Below, one piece after another: positions 29,502-64,000 of a DNA stretch of 64,000 nucleotides. Each line of letters opens with the position of its first letter. The first letter of the stretch is position 1. Position numbers and translations under genes: made by a program. Source of the DNA: Rhodospirillaceae bacterium (lineage in GTDB: Bacteria; Pseudomonadota; Alphaproteobacteria; Rhodospirillales; Rhodospirillaceae); the NCBI GenBank assembly GCA_040219235.1, contig JAVJSV010000016.1, forward strand, positions 310,001 through 374,000, written 5' to 3'. The notes beneath the pieces are model-generated. The model was given only the letters and a program-made list of their open reading frames with translations, was not told the DNA's origin and searched no databases.

Positions 29502-29638
29502 GGCTGCCCTGCTCCGTTTCTAATCTGCTGAGGTGTTCGTCTATGATGTTTTTCAATATCGCGGTTTAGAATTAGATACACACTACGTTAGTATGGTCTA
29601 TCCTGGTTACGGAAAAAAGAGTGGGAGTAGATCACACG

Positions 29639-46686: not shown

Positions 46687-47498
46687 CGCTTAGGAGCAGA
46701 GATCGGTCGCAGATGATCACAAGCGGGGCCAAGTTCAGCGAGCGGGGCAAATCTGCGACAGCGCCAATGGTTGTACTCAGGCCAAAGCGTGTCATCCGTC
46801 GCATGATAAATCTTGCCGTAGCACCCACTGGTGCCAACACAGCGAGTCATCAGGACGGCGAGGTCGTCATAGGTAATGGGTCCAGTCACATCCTGATTCT
46901 CAGTGAAGTACCCCCGGCCAGTACCCGGCGGCGGCTCACGTCCAAATTCAACCAAAATCGAGCCACTGCGAATGATCGTGTAATTGAGTTTGCTGCTGCG
47001 TAGCGCCGTTTCAACGAGGGCCTTCTCTGCCAATCCCTCAGCAAAGAGATCAAAATTGATATCTGGATAACGCGTCCGCTGAGCCACAGTATCCGGCCCG
47101 GCACCGACTGAACTGAGATAGATGAATTGAGACACCCCGCTTTGTTCAGCCAATCTTACAATTGCCACTTCGGGCTCTCCGTGTGGGCTTGGTTGCCCCC
47201 GGCGGCTTTGCAAAACGGCAAAAACAACATCTGGCTTAGCCTGTTCAAATGCGGCTTCCACGCTCTCAAAATCAAGCACGTCTCCTAAGGCATATTGTAA
47301 ATCAACTCCTGTCAGCCTCTCTCGCTTAGAGGACGGACGCACAAAGGCGGTCACCTGATGTCCTTCGGCAGCCAACATTTTGCTGATGCGTGACCCAGTA
47401 TGACCGGTCGCACCGAGCACAAGTACGTTCTCCGCCTGAACCTCACTTGACGGGCTAAACATCAAAGCAATGGCAAGGAATACGTGAAACCGTTTCAT
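46683..47498 (-). CDS. NmrA-like NAD(P)-binding protein with a signal peptide
   Basis: A 271-residue atypical short-chain dehydrogenase/NmrA-family protein. A hydrophobic leader (MKRFHVFLAIALMFSPSSEV, ending QAE) precedes the first Rossmann strand directly: NVLVLGATGHTGSRISKML, the dinucleotide-binding motif. The strand-4 segment FIYLSSVGAG and a YTIIRSGSI-like C-terminal half follow. Nicotinamide cofactors are normally cytoplasmic, so either the leader is an uncleaved membrane anchor, or the protein binds a cofactor before or after export. No catalytic Tyr-x3-Lys is obvious, as in NmrA-like regulators. Divergent from the alpha/beta hydrolase gene. Confidence 0.75.
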   Translation of the reverse strand: MKRFHVFLAIALMFSPSSEVQAENVLVLGATGHTGSRISKMLAAEGHQVTAFVRPSSKRERLTGVDLQYALGDVLDFESVEAAFEQAKPDVVFAVLQSRRGQPSPHGEPEVAIVRLAEQSGVSQFIYLSSVGAGPDTVAQRTRYPDINFDLFAEGLAEKALVETALRSSKLNYTIIRSGSILVEFGREPPPGTGRGYFTENQDVTGPITYDDLAVLMTRCVGTSGCYGKIYHATDDTLWPEYNHWRCRRFAPLAELGPACDHLRPISAPKR

Positions 47499-49913: not shown

Positions 49914-51122
49914 TTACTCAGCCGCCTCTCTTACTGGCTCGGCCTCTGGCAGTGCCCGATAGACCGGTGCGGGATCAAGCACCCAGGCTTTGCTGTCGCG
50001 ACGATAAGGACAAGGTATCGCTGTTACAACATCACCCTTCGCTGTCAGCGCATTGATCGCTTCATGATCCAGGCGCCAGCCTTTTTGTTCCCATTCTTTG
50101 AGTTTGCCGCGGTACTGAACAACCACGCGGTCATGGGGCATAAGCACTTCTTTAGTCGTGGTTGGCGGAGTCATTTTTGGCTCCAGCTTTTCAACAACAA
50201 CGATGTCTTCACTGGCCACAAACATATTCCGCTCTTTGATTTTCTTATCGAGAAATTTATTGAGCCACTCACGCTTAGTGATCGCCATGTTACGCAAATT
50301 AACCAAGAAAATACGTGTTTTAGCCTCATCAATAGGGGCTTCAAACATGTACTGATGCATGTGCATTTTTTCGGACAGATGGATATAGGTCCACATGTGG
50401 TTAGGGCCGTAGGTGCCGGAGCCCGCCTGCATTTTTCCGCCTTCTTTACGGAACCGTTTCATCAACCAGTTCTTCAAAGGAGGCGCATCAAAGGTATGCA
50501 TAAACCCAAAACCCCAGTCATTGTTTTTGTAGGGCTCCAACTCATTGACTTGGTACTCTTCTTCTCTCTCACCCTTATAACCGTGGGTAGAGTGCACATA
50601 CTCGTTGTGGGCTGGGTCTAAGCCGTTCTCAATGGACCGCTCGTAGTTGTAATCAACATCAAAAGTTTGAATGGTGGCCCGCCAGCCGTCAGTGTCGTAT
50701 TCATCAATCGGCATGATGGGCGGACGCTCCGCTTCGGGAAGATCCCCAATAAAGGCAAAAACCAATCCGTACTTATCCACTGTGGGATAGGCATCAACAC
50801 GCGCCCGGGCAGGAATTTTACCGTTAATCCCTAGCGATGGTATGCGTGTGCACACGCCATCTTTGGTAAAGCGCCAACCATGATACGGACACTGAACAGT
50901 GCCATCTTCTTTGCAGTTTCCGCCCGAGAGCGCACCGCCACGATGCACACAGGTATCCGACAACAAAGCCGGGTTTCCCTCGTTATCGCGAAAAGCCACA
51001 AAATTGTGTTTCAAAATTCGAACGCGGACGGGCTTGTCTGTCAGGTCATCGCTCACACAAACCGGATACCAGAAATTCACATACATGCCTTTTGTCTCCC
51101 ACTCTCGCTGCTGGCCAATCAT
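49914..51122 (-). CDS. Rieske non-heme iron ring-hydroxylating oxygenase, alpha subunit
   Basis: The catalytic subunit of an aromatic-ring or sterol/terpenoid-type oxygenase. The 402-residue protein has the Rieske [2Fe-2S] ligands C58-x-H60 in CVHRGG and C78-x2-H81 in CPYHGWRF. The mononuclear iron site is DPAHNEYVH with H172 and H177, bridged by Asp169. No beta subunit, ferredoxin or reductase gene is adjacent, so it resembles the alpha-only (homotrimeric) oxygenases that borrow electron carriers. ATG at 51122 with AGG close by; an internal ATG at 51086 is possible. Its divergent partner is an MFS transporter, which suggests regulated uptake and oxidation of one compound. Confidence 0.9.
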   Translation of the reverse strand: MIGQQREWETKGMYVNFWYPVCVSDDLTDKPVRVRILKHNFVAFRDNEGNPALLSDTCVHRGGALSGGNCKEDGTVQCPYHGWRFTKDGVCTRIPSLGINGKIPARARVDAYPTVDKYGLVFAFIGDLPEAERPPIMPIDEYDTDGWRATIQTFDVDYNYERSIENGLDPAHNEYVHSTHGYKGEREEEYQVNELEPYKNNDWGFGFMHTFDAPPLKNWLMKRFRKEGGKMQAGSGTYGPNHMWTYIHLSEKMHMHQYMFEAPIDEAKTRIFLVNLRNMAITKREWLNKFLDKKIKERNMFVASEDIVVVEKLEPKMTPPTTTKEVLMPHDRVVVQYRGKLKEWEQKGWRLDHEAINALTAKGDVVTAIPCPYRRDSKAWVLDPAPVYRALPEAEPVREAAE

Positions 51123-51524: not shown

Positions 51525-52763
51525 ATGACAGAGACAACCAGCCCCGTCACACCTGCTGTTCCTCCATCAGCGACATTACCCAGAATCACTGGCTTGGTCC
51601 TCGCCTATGGCATGCTGATCAGCGCCATCGGTAACAACTTTCTCATCACCATCCTGCCTCCTTTGGGCCGGGATATGGGCTTCTTGGAATGGCAAGTTGG
51701 CGTGATTCTCGCCGTCGGTGGCGCTTTCATGCTGATCACGGGGCCGGTGTGGGGCCGCATCAGCGAAGACTGGGGACGCAAGAATGTGATTCTGGTTGGT
51801 GCTGTGGGCTACGTCATTATGACGGCAGCTTTCGCCTTCACAATTGATCTGCGCCTTGCTGGAACAATGAGCGCATTCACATGCTTCCTTCTCCTGGTCG
51901 CTGTGCGTGGCTTGTACACGTTGTCGTCTGGCGCAATCTACCCAGCAACAATGGCCATGGTTGCAGATATGACCAGCAAGGAGAACCGTGCCGGTGGCTT
52001 GGCCATGATCACCGCAGCTTGGGGTTTTGGGTCTGTTGTCGGCCCCGCTATTGCAGCCATGTTTTCATCTCTGTCGCCAACCGCCCCCTTTTATATTGTC
52101 ACCGTGATGGGCTTCGCGGCTGTCGCGTTATACATTTACTGCCTGCATGAGCCAGAACGCCACAAGCGATCGGACAAAGTCGGTTTCCGCCACATTATGA
52201 CCCCGGCGGTGCTCAGCATCGCCGGGGGTTTTATGGTCCTTATCCTCGGTAACGTGACCATGGTTGTTATCCTCGGCTTTCACTTCCAGGACACATTCGG
52301 ACTCAGCACGGCAGAAACAGCGCGTGGCGTTGGCATTGCCCTGTTTGTCTCAGCCATTGCACAGATCATCATTCAAATTGGAGTTATTCCGCGTCTAAAA
52401 TGGTCGCCGCGCCGGATGATAAATGTCGGCATGCCAGTCGCTTTTGTCGCGGTTCTACTCATTATGGTCGCTCCCAGCTATTGGGCGCTCATTGGTGCTA
52501 TGGGCCTCTTTGGATTGGGCGGCGGCGTTGGTTGGCCAGCCTATATGACGGCGGCTTCTCTGGCTGCCGGACCAGAAAACCAGGGCAGCATGGCTGGTCT
52601 GACCGGGGCCTTCCAAGCGGTAGGCTTTATGATCGGACCTATTGTTGGCACCATCGCCTATCAAATCGCCCCCGCCTCTCCCTTTATTATTTGTGCATCC
52701 TTGCTCGTTATCTCAGTATTGATGGCCAACTTCTTACCAATGCCCGCACCGCATGAAGATTAG
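51525..52763 (+). CDS. MFS transporter
   Basis: A 412-residue major facilitator with 12 predicted helices. Motif A between helices 2 and 3 reads GPVWGRISEDWGRKNVILVG, matching the G-x3-D/E-x2-GRR/K pattern. A central cytoplasmic loop (LHEPERHKRSDKVGF) separates two six-helix bundles. The second half carries a similar loop (PRLKWSPRRM). The overall look is of the drug/organic-solute H+ antiporter type, but importers share it. The stop is 20 bases before the secreted-protein gene, so they are probably one operon, opposite the Rieske oxygenase. Confidence 0.88.
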   Translation: MTETTSPVTPAVPPSATLPRITGLVLAYGMLISAIGNNFLITILPPLGRDMGFLEWQVGVILAVGGAFMLITGPVWGRISEDWGRKNVILVGAVGYVIMTAAFAFTIDLRLAGTMSAFTCFLLLVAVRGLYTLSSGAIYPATMAMVADMTSKENRAGGLAMITAAWGFGSVVGPAIAAMFSSLSPTAPFYIVTVMGFAAVALYIYCLHEPERHKRSDKVGFRHIMTPAVLSIAGGFMVLILGNVTMVVILGFHFQDTFGLSTAETARGVGIALFVSAIAQIIIQIGVIPRLKWSPRRMINVGMPVAFVAVLLIMVAPSYWALIGAMGLFGLGGGVGWPAYMTAASLAAGPENQGSMAGLTGAFQAVGFMIGPIVGTIAYQIAPASPFIICASLLVISVLMANFLPMPAPHED

Positions 52764-52783: not shown

Positions 52784-53461
52784 ATGAACCGCTCAGGTCT
52801 TTTTTCCATATCGCTGTTTGGTCTTCTCGTTTCCGTAACGGGCGCCGATGCCGCAGACGGCCAAACCGAGATTACAGACACCTTCTGCACTAAGGTTCAG
52901 ACAACGATCATGAGCAACACCATTCCAGCGCAAACAATGGTGCACCCGGACTTTGACGCCTTCGTGCTCTCTAAAGCCTCTGTCGATCCGCTCCGCAATG
53001 AGCAGTTCACCACCACCGGTCCAGATGGCGCCCCCCGCATGGTCTCGTGTAAAATGAAGACGCCGGATCACATTGCCGAAGTCTATGGCGAAGACAAAGT
53101 GAACCCAGAGGCACTTTCCTGTGAAGCCATTAACCGGGCCAATGTGTCAGCAGTTATTGCTGCGCTGACGCCAGAAGAAGCGGCCAACCGCGTCTTGTCA
53201 GATGCCCAAATTATATTTGATGAAGATATCTCGGTTATGATGGGCACATCTTGGACCAAACCCTTTGATTTCGCCTATCGCGGCAAGTCAGGCGCGCTGC
53301 ATATACAAAGCAAACGCATGCAAATTGATTGGACCAGTCTGCTGTTTAAAATGGCGCCCGACCGTTTCAAAGGGGCATTGTATTGTCACCTCATCGCACC
53401 GGAATACGCAAAAGCGCTCATCTTGGGGACCGAGCAAATACCTGCGCCGACAGATGGTTAG
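52784..53461 (+). CDS. Secreted protein of unknown function
   Basis: A 225-residue protein with a signal peptide (MNRSGLFSISLFGLLVSVTG, cleavage near DAADG). The mature part has four cysteines (DTFCTKV, MVSCKM, ALSCEAIN, ALYCHLIA), suggesting two disulfides, and no membrane segment. I do not recognise the family. AGGAAGG lies before the ATG. Its close spacing behind the MFS gene and position opposite the oxygenase suggest a periplasmic role in handling the same compound, such as binding, but this is context only. Confidence 0.65.
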   Translation: MNRSGLFSISLFGLLVSVTGADAADGQTEITDTFCTKVQTTIMSNTIPAQTMVHPDFDAFVLSKASVDPLRNEQFTTTGPDGAPRMVSCKMKTPDHIAEVYGEDKVNPEALSCEAINRANVSAVIAALTPEEAANRVLSDAQIIFDEDISVMMGTSWTKPFDFAYRGKSGALHIQSKRMQIDWTSLLFKMAPDRFKGALYCHLIAPEYAKALILGTEQIPAPTDG

Positions 53462-53479: not shown

Positions 53480-55996
53480 CTAGAAACGGCGAGAAATCTC
53501 TAAACCGAAGGTCCTGGGTCTCAGCGGCGTAAACTGTGATGTCGCGCTCAGGCTAAAGCTATTGCCGTACGCAAAGGTATTGCCGCGATTATTAAAGAGA
53601 TTAGAGACGCTGATCTGCGCCTGCCACTGTTCAAATCCTAAACCAGTCCGCAATCCGACCCGATGGAACTCGCCCATTTCAGGCGACACATCCTGATCAA
53701 AGAACAATCGAGAGGCCCCGACATACCGGTAATCTCCACTCATATTGAAAGACATACGAGCATTTATTGGCTTCGAATAGTAGAACCCCAGACTTGCCGT
53801 GAAAGCTGAAACAGCCGGCAAACGATCCCCCTTCTCTGCATTCAAGAACGCATTGGCTTGTGACAATGTCGGGTCATTCCATATGCCAACGGCTGTCACA
53901 GTGAGATGATCGGAAACCTTTGCAGTGAGTTGCATTTCAACACCAAAGTTCGTGGCGTTTCCGGCGTTGGTTACAAATAAGAACCCTGTCGGAAGAATCT
54001 GGTCTGACTGAATATCATCCCAACGCACATAAAATGCAGAGACATCAATGCTCAGACGATCTTCGAACAACCGTGATTTGAAACCAAGTTCGTAGTTCCA
54101 CAACGAGTCATCCGTAAATGTTTGCGTTTGAATCGCTTCGTCCGGGTCTAGACCAGGGTCAAACAAGGCAGAAATCGGCGTGTTGATATTGACGCCGCCA
54201 ACACGGTATCCCTTGGCCGCTTGTGCATAAATCTGTGTCGACGCGGATAGTTCATAACGAAGTGAAGCCCTCGGGGTGACTGCATTCTCTTTATTAGGCA
54301 AATCGGTCTCTTCAGCGCGCCCGCTCAACAGTCCCGTTGTGAGCGATGATACGTCTAATGTCGCGCGATTCCATCTCATCCCCAAGGACAGTTCAAGCCT
54401 TGGCGTAAGACGGAACGACACATCGCCAAAGGCGGCGATCTGTTGAACATCATCATCCCTGTCCTCGGCAAAAACCACGTCATTTGGGAACCCGTCTTCA
54501 GCAAACGCAGCTCCAGCCCCAGGCACAGAGAAAGTTGTTTTGACGTTTTCATTCCGATCCAGATAGAAGCCACCAACAAGCCAATCAAAACGGCGACCGT
54601 CGGAATACAGCCGCACCTCTTGCGCAAGAGTTGCGATCTTGTTGCGCGATGTGAAAGGGCTCGACCGAAGCGACAAGTTGAGAAGATCAGGCACGGCAAG
54701 AGACGCATCTGATTGGTTTTGAATGCGTCGCCGAATATGCGTTGTCGCTGATAGAAACTTCGCCCAGCCAAAATCTCCATCGATAACCAAACCAGCCTGA
54801 TAGAACTGATCTTGGCGGGGTTCCGCGATATAGTTATTACGCACCAGCAAGCCTACATCGGGCGCGTAATATTGCGTGTCGTCGAGGCTGATCTTTTGCG
54901 CATTTCCCGTCAGCAGGGCTGACCAACGTTGTCCAATATCGGTTTGAAGGGAGACCCGCCCGCCAAAAATATGAGCTTCATTGACATCCTCTTCGTCCAA
55001 ACGCACGTCATCAATAAAGCCGCCGTATAAGTCATTAAACACGGCGAGCCGGAGTGCAGAGCGCCCCGCAACTAAGGGCACATTGATCATCCCATCCGCC
55101 CGATAACTGGGACTGCCGCTGTTCGTAAATGACCCACCCAGACTGACCTCTCCCAGAGTTTCAAAGGAATCAGGTTTTTGTGTGATAATGCGAAAGGTGC
55201 CGCCTAAAGACCCGGCCCCAAAAAGGGTGCCCTGCGGACCCCGCAAGACTTCTATACGCTCCACATCCACCAACCTGAAATCAGGATTGGTGTCACTGAA
55301 CACCAGCGGGGATTCATCAATGTAAAGACCAACGGTCGACTGGGTTCGGTCGGCCAACGGGCCATCCGATTGACCGCGTAAAAAGACCTTGTTCCGCCCT
55401 GGCCCTTGATTGGTCGAACTCAAACCAGCCACAAGGCCGATCAAGTCTTCCGTATCACGCACCGCCATGGCCTCAAGCTGCTCTGCCCCAACGGTTGCGA
55501 CACTAACGGCAATATCTTGGGGGACACGCCTTCTCTTCGTCGAGGTCACAATAACCTCCTCCAACCCCGAGCGCGCATCCCGCGTTCTGCTATTGATCGG
55601 TCGTCGGCTCGGCGTGACAGCTGCTTTTTGAGCCCGCGGTCCAAGGTCAGGAAACACACGCACGGTCTGCGAGTCTATGAACGCATATGTTAAACCACTG
55701 TCGCGGAGCAAAATACGCAACCCGTCGCCTGCGGAATACAACCCACTCACCCGTGGTGCGATGTAAAACACACCCTCTGGGTTCGACACACCGACAGACA
55801 CGTTGCCTTGTAAGGCCAACGTAATGAGCGCCTCTTCAATCGGTGCCGACGCAATTTCAAAAAATGTCAGTCTGGGGCGTGCTGGCACTTCAGAAGAAAC
55901 GACAGCCGCGCTTTGATCTTGCGCCCGAAGAACATCTGTATAGCTGGTCAGACAGACTACAAATGCGGCAAACAGCAAGCCTCCTAGACGAACCAC
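53480..55996 (-). CDS. TonB-dependent receptor with N-terminal STN signalling domain
   Basis: An 838-residue FecA-type transducer in the outer membrane. A signal peptide (MVRLGGLLFAAFVVCLTSYT) is followed by a secretin/TonB short N-terminal domain (residues about 45-120, with PIEEALITLALQGNVSVGV and AGDGLRILLRDSGLTYAFID). The TonB box/plug region is EEVIVTSTKRRRVPQDIAVS and RIEVLRGPQGTLFGAGSLGG. The barrel ends in a C-terminal phenylalanine (LEISRRF). The STN domain should contact the FecR protein encoded just upstream, whose stop overlaps this GTG start by one base (TAGTG). Ligand unknown; iron-siderophore is common, but carbon compounds are possible here. Confidence 0.92.
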   Translation of the reverse strand: MVRLGGLLFAAFVVCLTSYTDVLRAQDQSAAVVSSEVPARPRLTFFEIASAPIEEALITLALQGNVSVGVSNPEGVFYIAPRVSGLYSAGDGLRILLRDSGLTYAFIDSQTVRVFPDLGPRAQKAAVTPSRRPINSRTRDARSGLEEVIVTSTKRRRVPQDIAVSVATVGAEQLEAMAVRDTEDLIGLVAGLSSTNQGPGRNKVFLRGQSDGPLADRTQSTVGLYIDESPLVFSDTNPDFRLVDVERIEVLRGPQGTLFGAGSLGGTFRIITQKPDSFETLGEVSLGGSFTNSGSPSYRADGMINVPLVAGRSALRLAVFNDLYGGFIDDVRLDEEDVNEAHIFGGRVSLQTDIGQRWSALLTGNAQKISLDDTQYYAPDVGLLVRNNYIAEPRQDQFYQAGLVIDGDFGWAKFLSATTHIRRRIQNQSDASLAVPDLLNLSLRSSPFTSRNKIATLAQEVRLYSDGRRFDWLVGGFYLDRNENVKTTFSVPGAGAAFAEDGFPNDVVFAEDRDDDVQQIAAFGDVSFRLTPRLELSLGMRWNRATLDVSSLTTGLLSGRAEETDLPNKENAVTPRASLRYELSASTQIYAQAAKGYRVGGVNINTPISALFDPGLDPDEAIQTQTFTDDSLWNYELGFKSRLFEDRLSIDVSAFYVRWDDIQSDQILPTGFLFVTNAGNATNFGVEMQLTAKVSDHLTVTAVGIWNDPTLSQANAFLNAEKGDRLPAVSAFTASLGFYYSKPINARMSFNMSGDYRYVGASRLFFDQDVSPEMGEFHRVGLRTGLGFEQWQAQISVSNLFNNRGNTFAYGNSFSLSATSQFTPLRPRTFGLEISRRF

Positions 55997-57024
55997 TACG
56001 GACGTGCTTGAAGGCGAAGACCGCCCCCCTCTTCTGTAACAACCGACAGTTCCAATAGACCCGCCAACCGCTGCGTCATAATGTCAGCGGATTCTATGGC
56101 GAGAACACCAGTAAACGTGAGAGCTTCAAGGTCAGGTGATTGAACAGAGATTGTGGTTTCAGAATACCGGTTGAGGTCTTCAAGAACTTTGCCGAGGCTT
56201 GCATCCTTGTAAATCAGCTGTCCTCGCCGCCAGGATGCTGCTTCAGCGGCATCAACCGCATAGGACGTAATCGCCACGACCTCAGTGTTGACGTTTGCCC
56301 CTTGATTGGGCGTTAAGACCACCGCTTTGTTCGGCACCGGCCCATCAACATCCGCGCTTACGGAGACCCGCCCTTCCAGAACCGTGACCGCAAATCCGTT
56401 TTGTTGGCGTAGCACATCAAAGATCGTGCCCAACACTTCCACCGCGCCGCCATCCATACGCACAATAAAAGGTCGGGCGGAATCTGGCTGAACATCAAAC
56501 AACGCCCCGCCACGCGACAAAGACACAATCCGCCTGGTCTTTTGAAAGGAGACGTCAATCATCGATCCCGTATTCAAGGTTACAGTTGAACCGTCCTCAA
56601 GAGTAACATCACGGCGTTCCCCAATCGCCGTCGCAAACTGAATACTGTCAATGTTCACGTCCTCGACTGGTAGCAAGAACAACACAGCAAGCAATAAAAC
56701 GCCGCAGACAACAACCACCTGTGCTCTCCAAGCCGGCGCTAAGGTCGACGGCCAGAAAGATTTCGACACCCCGTTTTCTCGAGCTTCGGGACCAAAGCGG
56801 GCGCGAATGGAGTCCCTGGCATCCCCGGCCGCAATCCAGGCCGCATCAAGGTCTCTGAACGCTTGCGCGTTCATGGTATCCGCCTCCATCCACGACAAAT
56901 AGGCGTCCATTTCCTCATCAGACACAGACTCAGCGTTCAGCACTTGGACCCAGGCCAAGGCTTCCCGTTCCCGTCTCTCTTCTGCTGTTTCAAACATCTG
57001 TCGTCGCCCGTAGTAATTCAGCAT
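55996..57024 (-). CDS. FecR-family anti-sigma/transducer protein
   Basis: An inner-membrane regulator that relays ligand binding from the receptor to the sigma factor. The 342-residue protein has a cytoplasmic DUF4880-type domain (ALAWVQVLNAESVSDEEMDAY) and a membrane helix (AQVVVVCGVLLLAVLFLLPV). The periplasmic FecR domain has RRDVTLEDGSTVTLNTGSMI and FIVRMDGGAVEVLGTIFDVL. A C-terminal STN-like segment ends it (TFTGVLAIESADIMTQRLAGL). Start at 57024 or the internal ATG at 56997. Order sigma-FecR-receptor matches cell-surface signalling units. Confidence 0.92.
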   Translation of the reverse strand: MLNYYGRRQMFETAEERREREALAWVQVLNAESVSDEEMDAYLSWMEADTMNAQAFRDLDAAWIAAGDARDSIRARFGPEARENGVSKSFWPSTLAPAWRAQVVVVCGVLLLAVLFLLPVEDVNIDSIQFATAIGERRDVTLEDGSTVTLNTGSMIDVSFQKTRRIVSLSRGGALFDVQPDSARPFIVRMDGGAVEVLGTIFDVLRQQNGFAVTVLEGRVSVSADVDGPVPNKAVVLTPNQGANVNTEVVAITSYAVDAAEAASWRRGQLIYKDASLGKVLEDLNRYSETTISVQSPDLEALTFTGVLAIESADIMTQRLAGLLELSVVTEEGGGLRLQARP

Positions 57025-57120
57025 AAAAGCGCTTCATCACAGCGCAATCTGCCTCACAGGTGAGACGACACCAGGTCAGCCCCACCTCCACAGGTTTCAA
57101 CACTTTTATGTGACCCCGCT

Positions 57121-57636
57121 TCATTTCAACGCCTCAGCCAGTAACCGCAAAGCTTTGATCATGTGTTTTTCGACAGTGCTTTTGGATAAGCCCATTAATC
57201 TGGCGACCTCAGCATAAGAGTGGCCGTCGATCTTATGCAAAACAAAGGCTTGCCTTACTTTGGGCGTCAAAGTCTCCAACGCATTGAGCAAGCATGCAAG
57301 GTCTTGGCGACCAGCCAATTGCCGCTCCGCGTCTGGCGTTCGATCAACAAAATCCTCCCCAGCGGTGTCCGTGCGCAAGCCACCGTAGGCGGAGTCCCTG
57401 GCTTTGGCACGTGTGTTCCGCCGAATGAGATCAACAGACAGATTCCGCGCGATGCTAAACGCCAATGCTTTTACATTTTCGATGTTTTCTGACTGTGCAA
57501 CGTGATGGAGCTTGATAAACGTCTCTTGCACAACGTCATCCGCATCGGCTTCATTGCCAAAACGTGCAGTCAGGAACCGCCGCAATTGCGGCTGCACGGC
57601 TATAAAAAATCTCTGAACCTCTCGCTCATCATTCAT
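57121..57636 (-). CDS. ECF sigma factor, FecI-like
   Basis: A 171-residue extracytoplasmic-function sigma factor. Region 2 is FFIAVQPQLRRFLTARFGNE, then ADADDVVQETFIKLH. Region 4 is LETLTPKVRQAFVLHKIDGH followed by SYAEVARLMGLSKSTVEKHM, with a helix-turn-helix. It should direct RNA polymerase to the receptor gene downstream, and possibly to the divergent methyltransferase/FAD region, when the receptor signals. A 96-base gap separates it from fecR. The promoter must be in the short gap upstream. Confidence 0.93.
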   Translation of the reverse strand: MNDEREVQRFFIAVQPQLRRFLTARFGNEADADDVVQETFIKLHHVAQSENIENVKALAFSIARNLSVDLIRRNTRAKARDSAYGGLRTDTAGEDFVDRTPDAERQLAGRQDLACLLNALETLTPKVRQAFVLHKIDGHSYAEVARLMGLSKSTVEKHMIKALRLLAEALK

Positions 57637-57774
57637 GCGCGGAGTAACCCCACCCCATAAGCCTTGTCCGTAACTATAGGACAGAGCGTCGTCTTGCGCG
57701 AGGCCCGCTATGTGATGGAGGTACGACGGCGTCCGAGACGTCTTATCCGGAGAGCAGAACTCTTCAAAGGGACA

Positions 57775-57939
57775 ATGACAATGATGGCTTTATGGTCAGA
57801 AATTTGCGCTAAACAGAGGGGCTGGTGCTCATTGAAAGAAGGATACCTTCTGGCCATTGCGCTTAATCTCAGCGGCATTTCAGTTATTGTGGCGGCAATT
57901 ATCGCTCTCATTCTGAAAGCACAGATCAGCCTGACCTAA
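57775..57939 (+). CDS. Small single-helix membrane protein
   Basis: A 54-residue frame starting MTMMALWSEICAKQRGW, with AAAGG six bases before the ATG. One strong hydrophobic helix (YLLAIALNLSGISVIVAAII) is followed by a short polar end. It is divergent from the FecI gene, and a good terminator follows it at 58014, which supports a real transcript. I recognise no family. An upstream in-frame TTG at 57664 would give 91 residues with an arginine-rich start and is less likely. Confidence 0.5.
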   Translation: MTMMALWSEICAKQRGWCSLKEGYLLAIALNLSGISVIVAAIIALILKAQISLT

Positions 57940-58013
57940 TTCGGCTCGAGCACATTCAGATGGTCATGAGTGAATCGGATTTCTCCTCCTCCGTTACTTC
58001 ATTTAAAACAAAA

Positions 58014-58044
58014 AAAGAGCCCCGTCACGGTGGCGGGGCTCTTT
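58014..58044. terminator. Rho-independent terminator, bidirectional
   Basis: AAAGAGCCCCG pairs with CGGGGCTCTTT over 11 bases, with a nine-base loop and flanking A- and T-rich runs. It sits between the small forward ORF and the end of the reverse methyltransferase array, and can serve both. Confidence 0.9.
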
Positions 58045-58070
58045 AATCATTTCAGGGTATTTAGAATCTC

Positions 58071-59267
58071 TTACGCAGGTTTGGTCGCCATAATTGCACC
58101 ATGACCGCGCCGCGCCGGACGAATACTTTCGTCTACGTCAAAGCCGTGGGCCCTAATCACATCGCCAAAATCACGCGAGGCATATTCAACACGCCACGGC
58201 TCGCCGTTAAATTTATGGTCCTGCCAAATTGAGAACGAACGGTACACATTGCTCTTCGGAGCCTGCTTACCGGTTTGGAAATCCATCGGGAAGAACACGC
58301 CGCCAGGCCGCAGAATACGTTTCGCTTCAGCGATAATTTTATCCTGGGCTTCCGACGTGACCTCATGGAACATGATGTACGCCGTGATCAGATCAAAGTG
58401 GTTGTCCGGAAACTTAGTATCTTCCGCCAGACGCTGAACATAATGAACGTCTTTGCCCAAATCGACGCCACGCGTATGAGCAAAGCGCACCATCGGTCCG
58501 CCAACATCCAGGCCCCAAACTTCGGCCTCAGGGAAACGATCCTTCATGGCAAAGGTCAAACGACCAGTGGCACAGCCAAGGTCGAGAATACGCTCAACCT
58601 TCTTGCCGTCGCGTGGGGTTTGCACACGTTCCGCAATAGCGGCCTGGACTTCATCGTCGTAATTGCTGCCGCCGTAGAAGTTATTGACGCCGTAGTAGTT
58701 GATGTACCCGGCAAACGGGTCTCCCACGTAGCCACCAGGCTGAATATGAATTTCATGCTTGGTGTACTCAGGTATATCCAGATCAGGGTTTAGCTCCAAT
58801 GATCCAGGTCCGATGTTGTCCGCTGATTCCATTTCCGCCAGATACAAATCCGCGTTGGCATGAAAATGATCTTGCACCTGCTTCCAGGTCAGTTGCTGGT
58901 TGGAGACCCAGCCCCGCACACTGCCCATGATAATGTGATCATCTTCAACCATCTCCAAAATCTCTGACATCGGCAGATCATCGTCCGCCGTCAGGCCGCG
59001 TTCTTCCATCAAAACCGCAAAACGCTTTTGCGCCGCCTGGCGCATGTCACGGTTTACGAAGTTGCGAAAGCCGGTCAGAAAATCCTGGCTGCTTTCCAGA
59101 TCAAGCTCGGGAAGACGCTCTAAGCGTCCGCGTGTACCGCGCCACTCCACATCCTGAAATGCTCCGTCAGTGGATGTTTTGGCTTGAGCCGAACGCCCCT
59201 TCACCAAGGATGACAAAAAAGCTGTTGTCGCGGCTGTGGCACCAAATAAAGTACGGCGGTCAATCAT
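58071..59267 (-). CDS. Tat-signal-like SAM methyltransferase, paralogue A
   Basis: A 398-residue member of the four-gene array. Residues 3-8, DRRTLF, match a twin-arginine motif and are followed by a hydrophobic stretch and AQA, the layout of a Tat signal. The N-terminal half shares invariant blocks with its paralogues: GRLERLPELDLESSQDFLTG and KHEIHIQPGGYVGD (170-183), then NNFYGG. The C-terminal half is a class I methyltransferase: motif I ILDLGCATG (227-235), the ribose-binding Asp in WGLDVGGPMV, and RILRPGGVFFPMDF. GGGAGG precedes the start. Last gene of the array, with a terminator behind it. Substrate unknown; a methyltransferase exported in folded form would have to keep or lack SAM. 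Confidence 0.75.
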   Translation of the reverse strand: MIDRRTLFGATAATTAFLSSLVKGRSAQAKTSTDGAFQDVEWRGTRGRLERLPELDLESSQDFLTGFRNFVNRDMRQAAQKRFAVLMEERGLTADDDLPMSEILEMVEDDHIIMGSVRGWVSNQQLTWKQVQDHFHANADLYLAEMESADNIGPGSLELNPDLDIPEYTKHEIHIQPGGYVGDPFAGYINYYGVNNFYGGSNYDDEVQAAIAERVQTPRDGKKVERILDLGCATGRLTFAMKDRFPEAEVWGLDVGGPMVRFAHTRGVDLGKDVHYVQRLAEDTKFPDNHFDLITAYIMFHEVTSEAQDKIIAEAKRILRPGGVFFPMDFQTGKQAPKSNVYRSFSIWQDHKFNGEPWRVEYASRDFGDVIRAHGFDVDESIRPARRGHGAIMATKPA

Positions 59268-59373
59268 GTGAAGCCTCCCAGGAGGTTGGTCAAAGGTATT
59301 ACACGTATGACCTTATGATGAACCCATGGGAGCAAAAAATCAAAGGCTTTGCAGATTTTGGATGCTAAGCGAA

Positions 59374-59389
59374 CGGCAGAAATCTGCCG
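59374..59389. repeat. Inverted repeat CGGCAG-AAAT-CTGCCG
   Basis: A 6-bp stem (7 bp if the loop is tight) directly after the stop of paralogue B, in the 129-base gap before paralogue A. The T run precedes rather than follows it on the minus strand, so it is not a standard terminator for the array. Confidence 0.4.
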
Positions 59390-59396
59390 AAAAAAC

Positions 59397-60608
59397 CTAG
59401 GCCGGTTTGAGTCCCATAAGGTTTTTTCGGCCAATCCAGGCCGCTGGGCCATCCTCTGTGGTGTCAAAACCGGCGGTTTCCATGACCCCGAAGAGGTCGA
59501 GGTCATCGTATTCATCCCACCAGACTTCGTTGTTCCAGCGATGATCCCACCAATGGCGGAACTTTTGATTTGCACTGGGAGTCGGCTTGTTTTCTCCCGT
59601 ATAGAAGTCAATCGGGAAGAACACGCCGCCCGGCCTCAAAACACGGAACGTCTCAGCCACGGTCTGCTTGGAAATTTCAGCGGGCATCTCGTGATGCAAA
59701 ATATAGGACGTGACGATATCAAAGTAGCCGTCCTCAAACTTAGTATCTTCCGCCAGACGTTGGGCAAAGTTCACATCAACGCCCAAATCAACCGCACGCA
59801 TATGGGCATACCGAAGCATCGGCGCGCCGGCATCAATGCCCCACACTTCGGCATCGGGGAACCGTTCTTTCAGCGCGATAGAGTACTGCCCGGTGGTGCA
59901 TCCGACTTCCAGAATGCGAAGTGGCCGTCCGCCGGGCTGTGGTGAGGTTGGAACCGGCACTCTGCTGGCAAAATCAACCTGCACCTCATCCTGATCATTG
60001 CGACCGCCGTAAAAATTATTGTTGCCGTAGTGATAAACGTAACCACCCAGGGGGTCGCCAACATAGCCGCCCGGCATGATGTGAATTTCATGCTTTACGT
60101 GATCCGGCAGCACCATATCCGGGTTTAATTCCAGAGTACCGGGTCCGGCAGAGTCAGCGGCTTCCAGTTCCGCCAGATATTTGTCGGCGTCCTGATACAG
60201 GTGGGATTGAATGGTCCCCCACGTCATTTGCTGAAGACTGACCCATGTGCGGCAGTGCATGCCCAACACCGGATCGTTCTCAGCAATCTCCAGGATGGTT
60301 TCCATGGGCGGATCGCCATGAGGGTCCAGGCCCCTGGCTTCAAACAACTTGGCCATGCGCTGCGCGGACGCGCGGCGAAACCCCTGTCCGGTAAAGGTTC
60401 GAAACCCAGTCAGAAAATCCTGCTGGCTTTCCAGATCCAAGTTCGGCAGACGCTCAAGCCGGCCCACGGTGCCGCGCGGATCAAGATCACCTTTAAAGCT
60501 TGGTGGCGCCGCTTCAGCCTTACGTCCCCCGATTAAAGCCCCAGCTGTGGCTCCAACTGCAGCACCAAGTCCGGTTAAAGCAGGAAAAAGGGTTCTGCGA
60601 TCAAGCAT
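59397..60608 (-). CDS. Tat-signal-like SAM methyltransferase, paralogue B
   Basis: A 403-residue protein, the closest relative of paralogue C. DRRTLFPALTGLGAAVGATA gives the twin-arginine-like motif and hydrophobic region, ending near AEAAPP. The shared blocks GRLERLPNLDLESQQDFLTG, KHEIHIMPGGYVGDP and NNFYGG are present. Motif I is ILEVGCTTG, the ribose acid is in WGIDAGAPML, and the late motif is VLRPGGVFFPIDFYTGE. A tryptophan-rich tail (HWWDHRWNNEVWWDEYDD) is shared only with C and may shape the substrate pocket. GGAGC lies before the ATG. It follows paralogue C by 46 bases, so these two are probably co-transcribed. Confidence 0.75.
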   Translation of the reverse strand: MLDRRTLFPALTGLGAAVGATAGALIGGRKAEAAPPSFKGDLDPRGTVGRLERLPNLDLESQQDFLTGFRTFTGQGFRRASAQRMAKLFEARGLDPHGDPPMETILEIAENDPVLGMHCRTWVSLQQMTWGTIQSHLYQDADKYLAELEAADSAGPGTLELNPDMVLPDHVKHEIHIMPGGYVGDPLGGYVYHYGNNNFYGGRNDQDEVQVDFASRVPVPTSPQPGGRPLRILEVGCTTGQYSIALKERFPDAEVWGIDAGAPMLRYAHMRAVDLGVDVNFAQRLAEDTKFEDGYFDIVTSYILHHEMPAEISKQTVAETFRVLRPGGVFFPIDFYTGENKPTPSANQKFRHWWDHRWNNEVWWDEYDDLDLFGVMETAGFDTTEDGPAAWIGRKNLMGLKPA

Positions 60609-60654
60609 AGCGAAGCTCCAGTCAGTATGGACGTTAAAGCTATTAAGGCCCGTA

Positions 60655-61863
60655 TTAGGCGGGTTTGATTCCTAACAGGTTTTTCCGCCCAATCCAGGCA
60701 GCCGGACCATCTTCGGTGGTCTCAAATCCGGCAGATTCCATTTCCCCGAAGAGATCCAAATCATCATATTCGTCCCACCAGACTTCGTTGTTCCAGCGGT
60801 GATCCCACCAGTGGCGGAACTTCTGCCCGGCACTGACACTCGGTTTGTTTTCACCGGTGTAAAAATCAATCGGGAAAAACACACCACCGGGGCGCAGAAT
60901 ACGGAAGGTTTCTTTTACCGTCTGTTTTGAAATCTCAGCGGGCATCTCGTGATGCAAAATATAAGACGTGACGATATCGAAATAGCCGTCTTCAAACTTA
61001 GTGTCTTCCGCCAGGCGTTGTGCAAAGTTCACATCGACGCCAAGGTCGACGGCCCGCATATGTCCATAACGGACCATTGGTCCGCCAGCATCGATGCCCC
61101 AAACCTCAGCATCCGGAAAACGCTCTTTCAGGGCAACTGTCATCTGTCCAATGGTGCAGCCCATTTCCAATATACGCAGAGGACGACCGCCCGGCTGTGG
61201 TGTCGTGGGAACTGGCACGGAATCCGCATAAGAGATATGCAATTCATCCTGATGATTATTGCCACCATAGAAATTGTTGGTCCCGTAATGGAAAACATAC
61301 CCGCCAAGAGGGTCACCCACATAACCGCCCGGCATGATGTGAATTTCATGCTTCACATGATCGGGCAGATCCATATCCGGATTCAGTTCCAGCGTTCCTG
61401 GTCCGGCTTTATCAGCGGCTTCCAACTCGGCGAGATATTTATCAGGATCGCGATACACCAGTTCTTGCACCGTGCTCCAGGTCAGCTGCTGCATGCTGAC
61501 CCAACTGCGGCAATGCATGCCCAGAACTGGGTCATCACCAGCGATTTCAAGCACTGTCTCGATTGATGGGTCACCATGCGGGTCCAAACCCTTAGCTTCA
61601 AACAATTCAGCCAAACGCTTCGACGCGATGCGATTGAAACCGCGCCCCGTGAACCGCCGAAACCCCGTCAGGAAGTCCTGCTGGCTCTCAAGATCAAGCT
61701 CAGGAATGCGTTCTAATCGACCTTGTGTACCGCGTGGTTCAAGATCACCGGCAAAGCCGCCTTTGGTATTTGTCGCAGCTGTGGCCTTGCGTCCACCAAA
61801 GAAAGCGCTGGCAGCTCCGCCAAGAGCTGTGAGCGCTGGAAACAACGTGCGACGATCAATCAT
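60655..61863 (-). CDS. Tat-signal-like SAM methyltransferase, paralogue C
   Basis: A 402-residue protein nearly colinear with paralogue B throughout, including FAQRLAEDTKFEDGYFDIVT, HHEMPAEISKQTV and the Trp-rich tail; the two look like a recent duplication. Signal region DRRTLFPALTALGGAASAFF ends near ATAATN. Motif I is ILEMGCTIG, with the ribose acid in WGIDAGGPMV. The N-terminal shared blocks (GRLERIPELDLESQQDFLTG, KHEIHIMPGGYVGDP, NNFYGG) are intact. AAGGG lies before the ATG. A 175-base gap separates it from paralogue D, possibly with its own promoter. Confidence 0.75.
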   Translation of the reverse strand: MIDRRTLFPALTALGGAASAFFGGRKATAATNTKGGFAGDLEPRGTQGRLERIPELDLESQQDFLTGFRRFTGRGFNRIASKRLAELFEAKGLDPHGDPSIETVLEIAGDDPVLGMHCRSWVSMQQLTWSTVQELVYRDPDKYLAELEAADKAGPGTLELNPDMDLPDHVKHEIHIMPGGYVGDPLGGYVFHYGTNNFYGGNNHQDELHISYADSVPVPTTPQPGGRPLRILEMGCTIGQMTVALKERFPDAEVWGIDAGGPMVRYGHMRAVDLGVDVNFAQRLAEDTKFEDGYFDIVTSYILHHEMPAEISKQTVKETFRILRPGGVFFPIDFYTGENKPSVSAGQKFRHWWDHRWNNEVWWDEYDDLDLFGEMESAGFETTEDGPAAWIGRKNLLGIKPA

Positions 61864-62021
61864 CTTTAAAACCCTTCAAATACACAGTAACGAAACTGCC
61901 ACCGTGATTGGTTACTCAGATAGCTTTAATTTATTTATAGAATATCTGGCGTATAGGCTAAGCGTCCAATACCACCGATGACACTAGCAATAAATTTTAC
62001 GCATACCTATGTGGTCTTGTT

Positions 62022-62041
62022 TGAGCTTGAGATTAAGCTCA
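62022..62041. repeat. Hairpin at the stop of paralogue D
   Basis: TGAGCTT and AAGCTCA form a 7-bp stem with a six-base loop that begins at the stop codon of paralogue D. There is no T-tract after it; a 3'-end processing or weak termination role is possible. Confidence 0.35.
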
Positions 62042-63226
62042 GGCTTGCTTCACACCCATCATACTCCCTCTAAACGCGCCCCGCTCCTGGGGTGTTTTAT
62101 CATCAACTTCAAAGCCCGCCTCGGCCAGCAACTTAGGATAATTGTTGCTGCGATGGTCTTTCTGCCAGACCTCATGATTCCAGCGCCAAATCCAAAATCT
62201 CTGATACTGCTGAAACGGCGTTTGCTGGGGCATCTTATCCCAGTCCAACTGATCCCGCGCAAAAAACACCCCCCCCGGGCGCAGCACACGATGACCCTCG
62301 GCGATAATCTGCGCGGCGGCCTCAGCACTCACCTCATGGAACAGCAGGAAGGATGTCACCAAATCAAAGTGACCGTCCGGGAATTTGGTATCCTCGGCCA
62401 AGCGCTGCGCGAAATGAACGTCTACGCCTAAATCCACGGCCCGCATATGTGCATAGCGAACCATGGGTCCGCCGACATCGATGCCCCAAACCTCGGCATC
62501 CGGGTACTTTTCTTTCAGGCGTAAGGTCAACTGTCCGGCACTGCATCCCATATGCAGAATGCGTTTTACCTTGCCGTCCTTGGGTGTCGGAATAGTATCC
62601 ACCAGCTTGGCGTGCATTTCATCCTGGTAGTTACGACCCTCCCAGAAGTTATTCGTACCATAGTGATACATATGGCCTGCAAAAGCGTCTCCCACATAGC
62701 CGCCCGGCTGCATGTGAATTTCGTGTTTGGTATATTTTGGTAACACCATATCTGGGTTGAGTTCCAAGGTGCCCGGCCCCGCATTATCTGCGGCTTCCAT
62801 TTCCGCCAGATAGGCATCGGCGTTGCCATGAAATTCGTCGTACAGATTTTTCCACATGATTTGCTGAGCGCTGATCCACGCCCGACCACTGAGACCAACA
62901 ATATGATCGCCGCCAATCAGTTCAATGGCCGCTTCGTCAGACATCTGGGCGCGCTTATCAAGCCCGGCGGCCTCTAAGATCCGGTCCGCGCGTTGCGCCC
63001 CAGCGCGGCGGACATCGCGGTTTACCCAAATCCGGAATTGGGTCAGGAAGTCTTCGCGGCTTTCAACATCCAGCTTTGGTAAACGCTCAAGGCGGCGATC
63101 CGTCCCACGTGGCTCAACATCAACGCTTTTCGGCAATTTGGCTTGGACTGCGCGCCCACCGACTAGGGACGAAAGAGCAGCACCAATCGCTGTCGTCGCT
63201 TTGAACACCGTTCTACGATCCAACAT
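62039..63226 (-). CDS. Tat-signal-like SAM methyltransferase, paralogue D
   Basis: A 395-residue, more diverged member and the first gene of the array. DRRTVFKATTAIGAALSSLV gives a twin-arginine-like motif, here followed by Lys as in classical Tat signals, ending AVQAK. Shared blocks: DRRLERLPKLDVESREDFLT, KHEIHMQPGGYVGD and NNFWEG. Motif I reads ILHMGCSAG, with His where the others have Asp or Glu, but the ribose acid in WGIDVGGPMV is kept. Late motif VLRPGGVFFARDQLDWDK differs from the FPxDF of the others. Strong ribosome site GGGAGGG. It is divergent from the FAD oxidoreductase across a 182-base gap. Confidence 0.75.
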   Translation of the reverse strand: MLDRRTVFKATTAIGAALSSLVGGRAVQAKLPKSVDVEPRGTDRRLERLPKLDVESREDFLTQFRIWVNRDVRRAGAQRADRILEAAGLDKRAQMSDEAAIELIGGDHIVGLSGRAWISAQQIMWKNLYDEFHGNADAYLAEMEAADNAGPGTLELNPDMVLPKYTKHEIHMQPGGYVGDAFAGHMYHYGTNNFWEGRNYQDEMHAKLVDTIPTPKDGKVKRILHMGCSAGQLTLRLKEKYPDAEVWGIDVGGPMVRYAHMRAVDLGVDVHFAQRLAEDTKFPDGHFDLVTSFLLFHEVSAEAAAQIIAEGHRVLRPGGVFFARDQLDWDKMPQQTPFQQYQRFWIWRWNHEVWQKDHRSNNYPKLLAEAGFEVDDKTPQERGAFRGSMMGVKQA

Positions 63227-63408
63227 AGCTGTCCCTCCCCAGAATTTCAGATGACTTGCTATAGTGAGCCGACCTTAACAGCCTGGCAACAGCAACCCGA
63301 TTAGCGGTCGCGATGCGGGCATACCTCTTAAAATACAGAGAAACCGCGCTAGGCTAAGCGCCTCGGGTGCGTTAATGTTTCATAAAATAGATGCTCAGGG
63401 AGGTCTTA
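63227..63408. promoter_or_regulatory. Divergent region, methyltransferase array and FAD gene
   Basis: 182 bases holding promoters for both directions. GCGCT-AGGCTA-AGCGC at 63346-63361 is a 5-bp inverted repeat about 48 bases before the FAD gene. Nothing else is clear. Confidence 0.4.
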
Positions 63409-64000
63409 ATGACCAGGAAAACCAAGTTTCACAGCCCATTGTCACAGAACATCAGCAAGCGGCAGTTCTTGTCCGCCGCAGGTGCCGCAGCCGCCAGCGC
63501 GACGCTAACCACTTCGCAACCGAGCAAAGCCGCAGACGATGCCTGGGATGCCATTATCATCGGCGGCGGAACGGCCGGCCTTCCCGCAGCGATTTTTGCC
63601 GGTCAGCGGGGCGCTAAAGTCCTTATTATCGAAGCCGCGCCGGTGATTGGTGGCACCATGTTCCTCTCGTCTGGCCAAATGAGCGCCGCCGGCACCAAGC
63701 TGCAGAAATCAAAGGGAATCACCGGCGACAGCCCGCAATCCCATTACGACGACGTCATGCGCATCAGCAATAATACCGCGGATCCTTATATCCTGCGTCT
63801 GGCCACTGAAAACGCCGCCCCCGCCTTTGATTGGCTGACTGATAATGGCTTTGAGGTCTATCCTCATCATCCCGTGACCGGCACGACCCACGAGCCCTAC
63901 AGTCACGCTCGCTACGCCTGGCACAAGGAAGGCGCCATGGGCATTCTTGCGGTTTTCGAGAAGCTTCTTGAGCCTCTCACCGCGTCCGGTGCCGTCACCA
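63409..64000 (+). CDS. FAD-dependent oxidoreductase with Tat-like signal (partial)
   Basis: The 5' part of a flavoprotein of the fumarate-reductase/3-ketosteroid-dehydrogenase superfamily, cut by the window edge after about 197 residues. The start ATG at 63409 is preceded by GGGAGG. The leader contains SKRQFLSAAGAAAASATLTT, a Tat-type signal with KR in place of RR. The FAD-binding motif is AIIIGGGTAGLPAAIFAGQRG, followed by KVLIIEAAPVIGGTMFLSSG. The family oxidises or reduces organic substrates with bound FAD, and its members are often exported folded. Divergence from the methyltransferases, themselves with Tat-like leaders, suggests a common periplasmic pathway. Confidence 0.82.
   Translation, partial: MTRKTKFHSPLSQNISKRQFLSAAGAAAASATLTTSQPSKAADDAWDAIIIGGGTAGLPAAIFAGQRGAKVLIIEAAPVIGGTMFLSSGQMSAAGTKLQKSKGITGDSPQSHYDDVMRISNNTADPYILRLATENAAPAFDWLTDNGFEVYPHHPVTGTTHEPYSHARYAWHKEGAMGILAVFEKLLEPLTASGAVT

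Follow-up and report, generated by a model that had tools for sequence, protein, structure and literature searches.

SAM methyltransferases are textbook cytoplasmic enzymes, and SAM is thought to be confined to the cell interior. An uncultured aquatic bacterium carries four tandem genes which code for proteins with a class I methyltransferase domain behind a leader resembling a signal for twin-arginine (Tat) export. This raises the question whether a family of SAM methyltransferases may act outside the cytoplasm. The genes are located in a stretch of 64,000 nucleotides, which was analysed as a whole and is referred to as the window.

The methyltransferase array

The array is encoded on the reverse strand. 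Its first gene codes for methyltransferase-fold protein D (P0004, 395 aa, 62039..63226) and is followed by those for proteins C (P0003, 402 aa, 60655..61863), B (P0002, 403 aa, 59397..60608), and A (P0001, 398 aa, 58071..59267), the latter being the last gene of the array. All four ORFs are complete, and each starts with M(I/L)DRRT(L/V)F. Sequence identity to P0001 is 52% for P0002 and P0003 and 53% for P0004. The Pfam domains Methyltransf_25 and Methyltransf_11 are above cut-off in all four proteins at approximately residues 223-331 (66-78 bits against a cut-off of 27 for Methyltransf_25). The ORF list and Pfam thus confirm what a preliminary description had read from this DNA: four tandem ORFs which combine such a leader with a class I SAM-methyltransferase domain.

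In a promoter scan of region 57500-63600, sigma-70-like sites numbered 0, compared to 4.9 on average after shuffling, and terminator-like sites numbered 15, compared to 6.5. Because most of the latter are within genes and no promoter was found, the scan is uninformative on operon structure.

Leader sequences

The predicted Tat leaders were delimited by alignment column statistics. They cover residues 1-29 of P0004 (63140..63226, reverse strand as for the others; end V-Q-A), where pLDDT is below 50 over residues 1-37, residues 1-29 of P0003 (61777..61863; end A-T-A), residues 1-33 of P0002 (60510..60608; end A-E-A), and residues 1-29 of P0001 (59181..59267; end A-Q-A).

The leader alignment consists of the four window proteins and 51 of 72 homologous frames, which were picked by hand. 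The Arg pair is invariant in all 50 rows having those columns (the columns are missing from the five rows L045:3024, L071, L073, L075, and L076), in a set which is biased to leader-bearing kin since it was retrieved with P0004 as query. At the Ala-x-Ala site, A27 is found in 47/50 rows and A29 in 50/51, P0004 itself having V-x-A. The h-region sequence drifts among homologues while the Arg pair and Ala-x-Ala stay. The 21 homologous frames outside the alignment were checked later; 15 pass the leader test, while the remaining six comprise truncated, overlong, or odd frames, one frame beginning past the leader (L059), and a different methyltransferase (L078). Among 57 sequences, the two arginines are specified by 6 and 5 different codons. 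That the leader-bearing array recurs in relatives, that the Arg pair is invariant, and that its codons vary argues against an array which arose by chance.

Further features are consistent with Tat targeting. A hydrophobic residue at +2/+3 is present in 59/59 leader rows, a Gly, Ser, or Pro late in the h-region in 58/59, and a basic residue in the c-region, which relates to Sec avoidance and is frequent rather than required, in 50/59. Such features are listed for Tat and Sec avoidance in a review (PMC7317946). The genome has one TatC gene. The Pfam model TAT_signal stays below cut-off in the array proteins, with a weak match in P0004 alone of the four (E 0.18, 12.3 bits against 22.7), and the case for Tat therefore rests on conservation and not on this model. 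As judged from the sequences, it is well supported that the leaders are Tat export signals, as had been proposed from their layout.

Paralogues with and without a leader

The genome carries 44 copies of the family, as counted in the fetched stretches (members outside would be missed) and excluding four weak matches (E 3.4e-30 or worse). A leader is found in 13 of them and is absent from 31. The array has four of the 44, so that the tandem copies, although conserved as an array in relatives, are not the stand-alone quartet which they had been taken for. In G218, a genome from another bacterial family, none of the 42 members has a leader. Eight genomes from a single bacterial family have between 4 and 27 P0004-like copies each, in a scan which scored every first-look candidate; other genome scans were capped at 33, 5, and 4 scored candidates for each genome, so that their copy numbers are lower bounds and members can be missed.

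Homologues without the Arg pair, which had been named as evidence against export, thus exist, but their distribution is not random: they form separate branches, plus two losses nested among leader-bearing rows, L082:5756-6889 and L045:3024-4139. On a tree of 94 rows, a quick build with SH-aLRT as its sole support measure, the leader can be accounted for by a single gain and two losses (3 changes), compared to a mean of 28.6 changes when the leader is shuffled (0/500 shuffles as low as 3). The branch holding all leader rows has an SH-aLRT of 94, just below the star mark.

The own copies were aligned except for one which spans two fetched stretches (43 of 44). The median number of core cysteines is 1 in the 13 with a leader versus 3.5 in the 30 without, and the two leaderless rows nested in the leader clade have 4 and 3; since the rows of the tree share ancestry, these numbers for cysteines and leaders cannot be treated as independent observations. 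The depletion of cysteines points to an exported protein body.

SAM site and structure

Gly227, Asp250, and Glu278 are each present in 13/13 own leader-bearing copies compared to 26, 29, and 22 of the 30 leaderless ones, while His171, His297, Glu298, and Glu352 occur in 43/43. Gly231 is found in 12/13 own leader-bearing copies, with Ala in the remaining one. The motif I acid at position 225 is present in 11/13; another copy has Val, and P0004 has His225 where Asp or Glu usually precedes the motif I Gly. In these alignments, SAM-site and catalytic-type residues are kept about equally well with and without a leader. The suggestion that the fold has been reused without SAM chemistry is thus disfavoured.

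The AF2 model has a pLDDT of 87.4, and all 50 Foldseek matches listed are methyltransferases. According to this model and a profile alignment, His297 and Glu298 come after strand 4, where the catalytic residues of class I methyltransferases are often found. The profile alignment was made with the O-methyltransferase encoded at 29621-30652 of the window and places His297-Glu298 opposite its His-Asp, with a weak overall score (probability 55%); on this alignment, the His plus acid which follow strand 4 in the array proteins may correspond to the LHD motif of O-methyltransferases with its catalytic His. Of the domains of Methyltransf_2 O-methyltransferases (COMT/ASMT type), PF00891 has a match below cut-off in P0001 alone (17.6 bits against 22.3), and the dimerisation domain PF08100 was not found in the four proteins. 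None of the NCBIfam equivalogs (UbiE/COQ5, BioC, CpaM, and others) reached cut-off among the best 25 per protein, the best being CpaM with 65.8 bits against 180; since the listed matches are all below threshold, no activity was assigned.

The array proteins share the C-terminal Rossmann-type domain and the SAM motifs with class I small-molecule methyltransferases of the Methyltransf_25/11 type (e.g., the structures of Rv2258c, Coq5, ASMT, SgvM, and DsyB). They differ by the Tat-type leader and by an N-terminal region of about 200 residues, which is mostly helical. This region is without a close whole-length structural match among the 50 matches listed (query-normalised TM at most 0.43).

Gene neighbourhood

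Next to the array, a divergently transcribed gene for a FAD_binding_2 flavoprotein starts at 63391..64000 (forward strand) and runs beyond the window end, its family being taken from the L039 orthologue. Orthologues hold the same position in 5/5 relatives. The nearest matches are flavocytochrome c, a vinyl phenol reductase model, and urocanate reductase. The preliminary description had pointed to a Tat-like flavoprotein next door; this link stands, but the KRQFL-type leader has KR and not RR.

By synteny, an MFS transporter (51525..52763, forward strand) and a 225-aa protein with a signal-like N-terminus and no Pfam family (52784..53461, forward strand) are conserved array neighbours in relatives. 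Synteny and a domain search also identified a Rieske oxygenase with a VanA_C domain of the O-demethylase type (49914..51122, reverse strand), which in addition resembles a 4beta-methylsterol monooxygenase model; its orthologue is near the array in L040 (86% over 188 aa). The genome has 8 VanA_C matches (7 frames) compared to 44 methyltransferases. A tannase/feruloyl esterase directly follows the array in L039, one of five arrays.

A receptor-linked sigma factor had also been cited for a dedicated pathway; the genes concerned code for a TonB-receptor, FecR, and an ECF sigma factor (53480..57636, reverse strand; FecR and sigma factor named from sequence and not by profile search). In L039, L040, and L041, the three relatives which are long enough to judge, this block does not occur between the array and its conserved neighbours; L042 ends inside the array, and about 1 kb past the array is visible in L044, with a frame matching nothing in the window. 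These genes are probably outside the system, as far as gene order tells, so that a pathway deduced from neighbours retains the flavoprotein and loses this block.

A single gene family travelling with all copies was also considered and rejected: the commonest non-methyltransferase cluster occurs at 6/36 loci and also in 5/23 background stretches, and the next one at 5/36. Other Rossmann-type proteins (NmrA-like, SDR) whose N-termini resemble signals are encoded near some copies, and a gene of DMT/EamA appearance lies close to copies in both L040 and L043. A link to a SAM transporter is not supported, as far as the one candidate followed can tell: the L040 gene had no relative among the genes around this genome's copies or within the background set.

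Proposed function and alternative explanations

We lean, with modest confidence, towards Tat-exported and processed small-molecule methyltransferases which are charged with SAM before export and perhaps act on aromatic substrates. The paralogues would fold in the cytoplasm and bind SAM (or SAH) there, the folded enzymes would pass the Tat translocon, and signal peptidase would cut at A-x-A to free them into the periplasm. There, they may transfer methyl groups to small molecules, with phenolic or other aromatic compounds as plausible substrates and a separate substrate range for each copy. The chemistry may be O-methylation through His297 together with Glu298/Glu352. Actual export and cleavage, SAM carriage, O-methylation via His297, and aromatic substrates are thus what we infer, and the guess at aromatic substrates is derived from the neighbours (flavoprotein, VanA_C Rieske oxygenase, tannase/feruloyl esterase). 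Counting against this guess are the presence of the tannase at a single array of five, the resemblance of the Rieske protein to a sterol monooxygenase model, and the small number of VanA_C matches compared to that of the methyltransferases.

As a parallel we propose glucose-fructose oxidoreductase from Zymomonas, an enzyme with a soluble cofactor which is exported by Tat in a folded state with bound NADP. Its export reportedly depends on cofactor binding. It belongs to an unrelated enzyme family, its cofactor is NADP and not SAM, and it regenerates this cofactor within its catalytic cycle, while SAM is normally not regenerated in such a way. We know of no free periplasmic SAM pool, and repeated turnover would thus have no explained donor, which counts against the explanation we prefer. 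A captive SAM/SAH prosthetic group, loaded in the cytoplasm and locked in before Tat export, might shuttle methyl groups between two periplasmic substrates, from a methoxy donor to SAH and from SAM to an acceptor, in a methyl version of what glucose-fructose oxidoreductase does with its captive NADP; we regard this as unlikely.

The lack of a known periplasmic source of SAM also speaks for exported proteins which are no longer SAM enzymes and bind another ligand (e.g., a nucleoside or an aromatic compound) or perform SAM-independent chemistry in the periplasm, as do His225 in P0004, the Val at this position in one own leader-bearing copy, and the Ala in place of Gly231 in one. If the fold were drifting, one would anticipate loss of Gly227, Asp250, and Glu278, which the own leader-bearing copies all retain, and His297 and Glu298 are at the usual catalytic place; we consider this explanation rather unlikely, though it deserves some weight. 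Alternatively, the leader may be a membrane anchor, as the preliminary description had allowed, and stay uncleaved at the N-terminus. An anchored enzyme might even remain on the cytoplasmic side, where ordinary SAM is at its disposal, and the SAM problem would vanish. The h-region is indeed hydrophobic, but just mildly so (mean Kyte-Doolittle 0.62-1.54 in 57 leaders which were preselected for >0.6). A cytoplasm-facing anchor needs neither of the conserved RR and AxA motifs, of which AxA argues for cleavage instead of lasting anchorage, and the low cysteine content points to an exported body. We therefore judge an anchor to be improbable.

Slightly less probable again are exported enzymes which depend on a methyl donor other than SAM loaded in the cytoplasm, such as periplasmic SAM from lysed cells or from an exporter. 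The NmrA-like and SDR proteins with signal-like N-termini near some copies would fit a supply of soluble cofactors in the periplasm, but no SAM exporter was identified, the DMT/EamA-looking gene of L040 being the one candidate followed. Finally, the leader might be a start-site artefact, the proteins beginning downstream and being cytoplasmic. Its absence from most own paralogues, from all G218 members, and from two rows inside the leader clade would fit. This is already disfavoured, and we give it hardly any credence, in view of the synonymous variation at the invariant Arg pair and because 99/115 homologue matches from the eight genomes of the family reach P0004 residue 10 or earlier.

Biological significance

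Our searches of open-access literature turned up no account of a family like this one. In SAR202 bacteria, which are likewise uncultured and aquatic, FMNO and the enolase superfamily have expanded into numerous paralogues within a single genome, and the authors took this to broaden the organic substrates which can be used (PMC6946804). The enzyme families and the phylum are different, and the words methyltransferase, signal peptide, and periplasm are absent from the main text of that report (PMC6946804). With the copies described here, methyltransferases would join the enzymes whose expansion has been reported in aquatic bacteria which live on dissolved organic matter.

If a captive cofactor were indeed used, exported paralogues would redistribute the methoxy groups of dissolved aromatic matter without its entering the cytoplasm. 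More generally, a methyltransferase clade under selection for a Tat leader would mean either an enzyme charged with SAM which works without a SAM pool, or SAM in the periplasm, or a new chemistry of this fold.

Array and family

Four complete tandem ORFs on the minus strand (58071-63226) code for proteins of 398, 403, 402, and 395 aa and are separated by 129, 46, and 175 bases. As the preliminary description held, all four combine the N-terminus M(I/L)DRRT(L/V)F with a class I methyltransferase domain in the C-terminal half (Pfam). None of the best 25 NCBIfam models listed per protein reached its curated cut-off, and thus no curated family name was found there.

The genome (3.97 Mb, 21 contigs) yields 48 matches to P0004, array copy D, at E 1e-3 or better. 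Reading of frames and an iterated profile search gave 44 full-length members of 348-431 aa, a count which excludes four weaker matches. The leader (RR motif, hydrophobic stretch, and A-x-A site) is carried by 13 of the 44, the four array copies and nine elsewhere. Four genomes of relatives, one being a 1.7 Mb assembly that is 81% complete, have 45, 18, 21, and 42 members when all first-look candidates are scored. In the bacterial family of the window, at least 19 genomes out of 59, spread over at least 6 of 23 genera, contain the methyltransferase family, as do at least 25 of 385 genomes of the class. With P0004 as query at E 1e-40 and the best four or fewer candidates scored per genome, it was found in at least 2 of 398 genomes of a phylum sample, that of the window included. 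The named homologues are from metagenome bins, mostly labelled Rhodospirillaceae or Alphaproteobacteria, and the sample names of several indicate seas and lakes. Neither this expansion nor an exported SAM-methyltransferase family was found described in listings of the open-access literature, subscription papers being outside the scope.

Conservation and history of the leader

The leader was aligned for 55 rows, the four window proteins and 51 homologues. Arg4 and Arg5 are kept in all 50 rows having those columns, as expected for a Tat signal; five rows (L045:3024, L071, L073, L075, and L076) have a gap there, and no row of the alignment has any other pair. Six kinds of Arg codon are used at the first and five at the second position (57 sequences), which argues for selection at the protein level. 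Ala27 is found in 47 of 50 rows (P0004 being among those with Val27) and Ala29 in 50 of 51, whereas the stretch from the Arg pair to this site is variable. A basic residue in the c-region (50/59 leader rows) and a late Gly, Ser, or Pro in the h-region (58/59) are among the Tat features listed in the review PMC7317946. The genome has one TatC gene. The Pfam TAT_signal model stays below its cut-off for the window proteins, which counts against the Tat reading.

Homologues without the RR pair, which would speak against export, do exist: 31 of the 44 copies in this genome, and all 42 members, each read, in G218, a genome of another bacterial family. On the tree, however, leader rows are confined to one place. 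This tree (94 rows, leader columns removed, quick search, SH-aLRT support only) requires 3 leader changes as compared to a mean of 28.6 for shuffled labels, with none of 500 shuffles as low; its starred branches alone force two. One group of 61 rows (support 94, unstarred) holds all 59 leader rows. The surrounding leaderless branches suggest the direction of the first change, and the two leaderless rows within the group, L082:5756-6889 from this genome and L045:3024-4139, are read as probable later losses. At E 1e-80, P0004 has no match in four genomes of that other bacterial family, G218 among them; eight genomes of the window's family, picked for holding the methyltransferases, have 4 to 27 matches each. 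Of these 115 matches, 99 extend to P0004 residue 10 or earlier and 16 begin after it.

Low cysteine content may be a second trace of export, partly independent of the leader. The core has 1 or 2 cysteines (median 1) in the 13 leader copies of this genome versus 1 to 8 (median 3.5) in 30 leaderless ones (Mann-Whitney p = 4.7e-5, with rows related by descent). Counts of 3 to 7 were obtained for six rows from the leaderless sister group. The nested rows L082:5756-6889 and L045:3024-4139, possible natural cytoplasmic revertants, have 4 and 3, respectively; the latter proves nothing alone because three cysteines also occur in 4 of 59 leader rows.

Signal conservation, tree position, and cysteine content together strongly support Tat export and cleavage as predicted from sequence, and at that level the proposal of an exported SAM methyltransferase family is partly supported.

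SAM site and structure

The AF2 model (pLDDT 87.4, pTM 0.85; residues 1-37 below 50) is that of a class I methyltransferase, the N-terminal half being mostly helical. All 50 Foldseek matches listed from the PDB are methyltransferases, with query-normalised TM values of 0.25-0.43, so that none of them closely matches the N-terminal half.

Methyltransferase activity is likely. Alignment with solved enzymes places Gly227, Asp250, and Glu278 at the SAM site; each is present in 13/13 leader copies of this genome, as compared to 26/30, 29/30, and 22/30 leaderless copies. His171, His297, Glu298, and Glu352 are found in 43 of 43 copies. His297-Glu298 directly follows strand 4, opposite the His-Asp of the O-methyltransferase at 29621-30652 of the window (weak alignment score); in COMT-type enzymes that His is the catalytic base. 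Against an active SAM enzyme speak His225 in P0004 (leaderless copies have Asp in 25/30 and Glu in 5/30), Val225 in one other leader copy, and Ala for Gly231 in one leader copy.

Genomic surroundings

Multi-copy arrays are conserved on five contigs from relatives, with 4, 5, 5, at least 3, and 6 copies on L039, L040, L041, L042, and L044, respectively (L042 ends inside its array). Counterparts of copies A, B/C, and D are present in these arrays on the tree, and the array is therefore old. The arrays of L039 (4756-5973), L041 (4795-5973), L042 (4795-5973), and L044 (4768-5973) begin with an additional leader-bearing type; on the tree, which lacks the L041 and L044 copies, those of L039 and L042 group with no row of that type from the window genome. 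The last copy of L044 (11118-12176) has 353 aa as compared to 396-399 aa in its counterparts and may be a damaged gene or an assembly slip.

The divergent FAD_binding_2 flavoprotein (63391..64000 (+), running past the window end) adjoins the array in 5/5 relatives' contigs. The proposed partnership is thus supported by adjacency; the leader reads KRQFL in window and relatives, not RR, so that Tat export is less certain than for the methyltransferases. Its nearest models, flavocytochrome c and vinyl phenol reductase, are below cut-off, and its nearest solved structures are flavocytochrome c fumarate reductases and urocanate reductase.

On the far side, a 225-aa protein (52784-53461) and an MFS transporter (51525..52763 (+)) follow in all three contigs reaching far enough; in L039 only, a tannase/feruloyl esterase gene lies between array and pair. 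The Rieske gene (49914..51122 (-)) also follows in L040, the single contig extending further. The receptor-linked sigma factor had been taken for another partner, but neither it (ECF type) nor the FecR and TonB-receptor genes are present at the corresponding places in L039, L040, and L041, the contigs that reach far enough. This set (53480-57636) looks like a later insertion, as it is placed between the array and its conserved followers.

In the Rieske protein, a VanA_C domain scores above cut-off. The protein is similar to phthalate 4,5-dioxygenase and dicamba O-demethylase, but a 4beta-methylsterol monooxygenase model also matches it, short of the cut-off. The window gene next to it codes for a curcumin-reductase-like enzyme, again with a score below the cut-off. 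As a guess, the neighbours hint at aromatic, perhaps methoxylated, substrates.

Other exported-looking neighbours

The loose RR-leader test is passed by 33 of 322 non-methyltransferase neighbours versus 11 of 257 background ORFs of this genome (some of the latter evident Tat proteins, others not), with evident false positives in both sets. A flavin amine-oxidase-like cluster, named from its sequence, occurs in the window genome at L080, L093, L095, L097, and L109 (5/36 methyltransferase loci vs. 0/23 background stretches), with RR leaders in 4/5. NmrA-like NAD(P)-binding proteins (5/36 vs. 1/23) are encoded in the window (46683-47498 (-)) and at L086:7908-8663 (-), L089:11311-12093 (-), L102:4175-4819 (+), and L107:4725-5510 (-). 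In those of the window, L086, L089, and L107, a signal-peptide-like N-terminus directly abuts the nucleotide-binding Gly motif; such proteins may thus be a second exported class of soluble-cofactor enzymes. An SDR-like protein (L083:2653-3471 (+)), near two leader-bearing methyltransferases, also proceeds at once from such an N-terminus to TGxxxGIG. DMT/EamA-looking membrane proteins, a family guessed from sequence, are encoded near leader-bearing copies at L040:670-1524 and L043:11915-12646; no relative of the former was found among the neighbour and background proteins of the window genome.

SAM supply

The real question is how a SAM enzyme would be fed outside the cytoplasm. Our best guess is that SAM is carried in with the enzyme. 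A periplasmic pool would be a further option, and the boldest is that SAM may be kept captive as a cofactor, with methoxy donors serving to recycle it.
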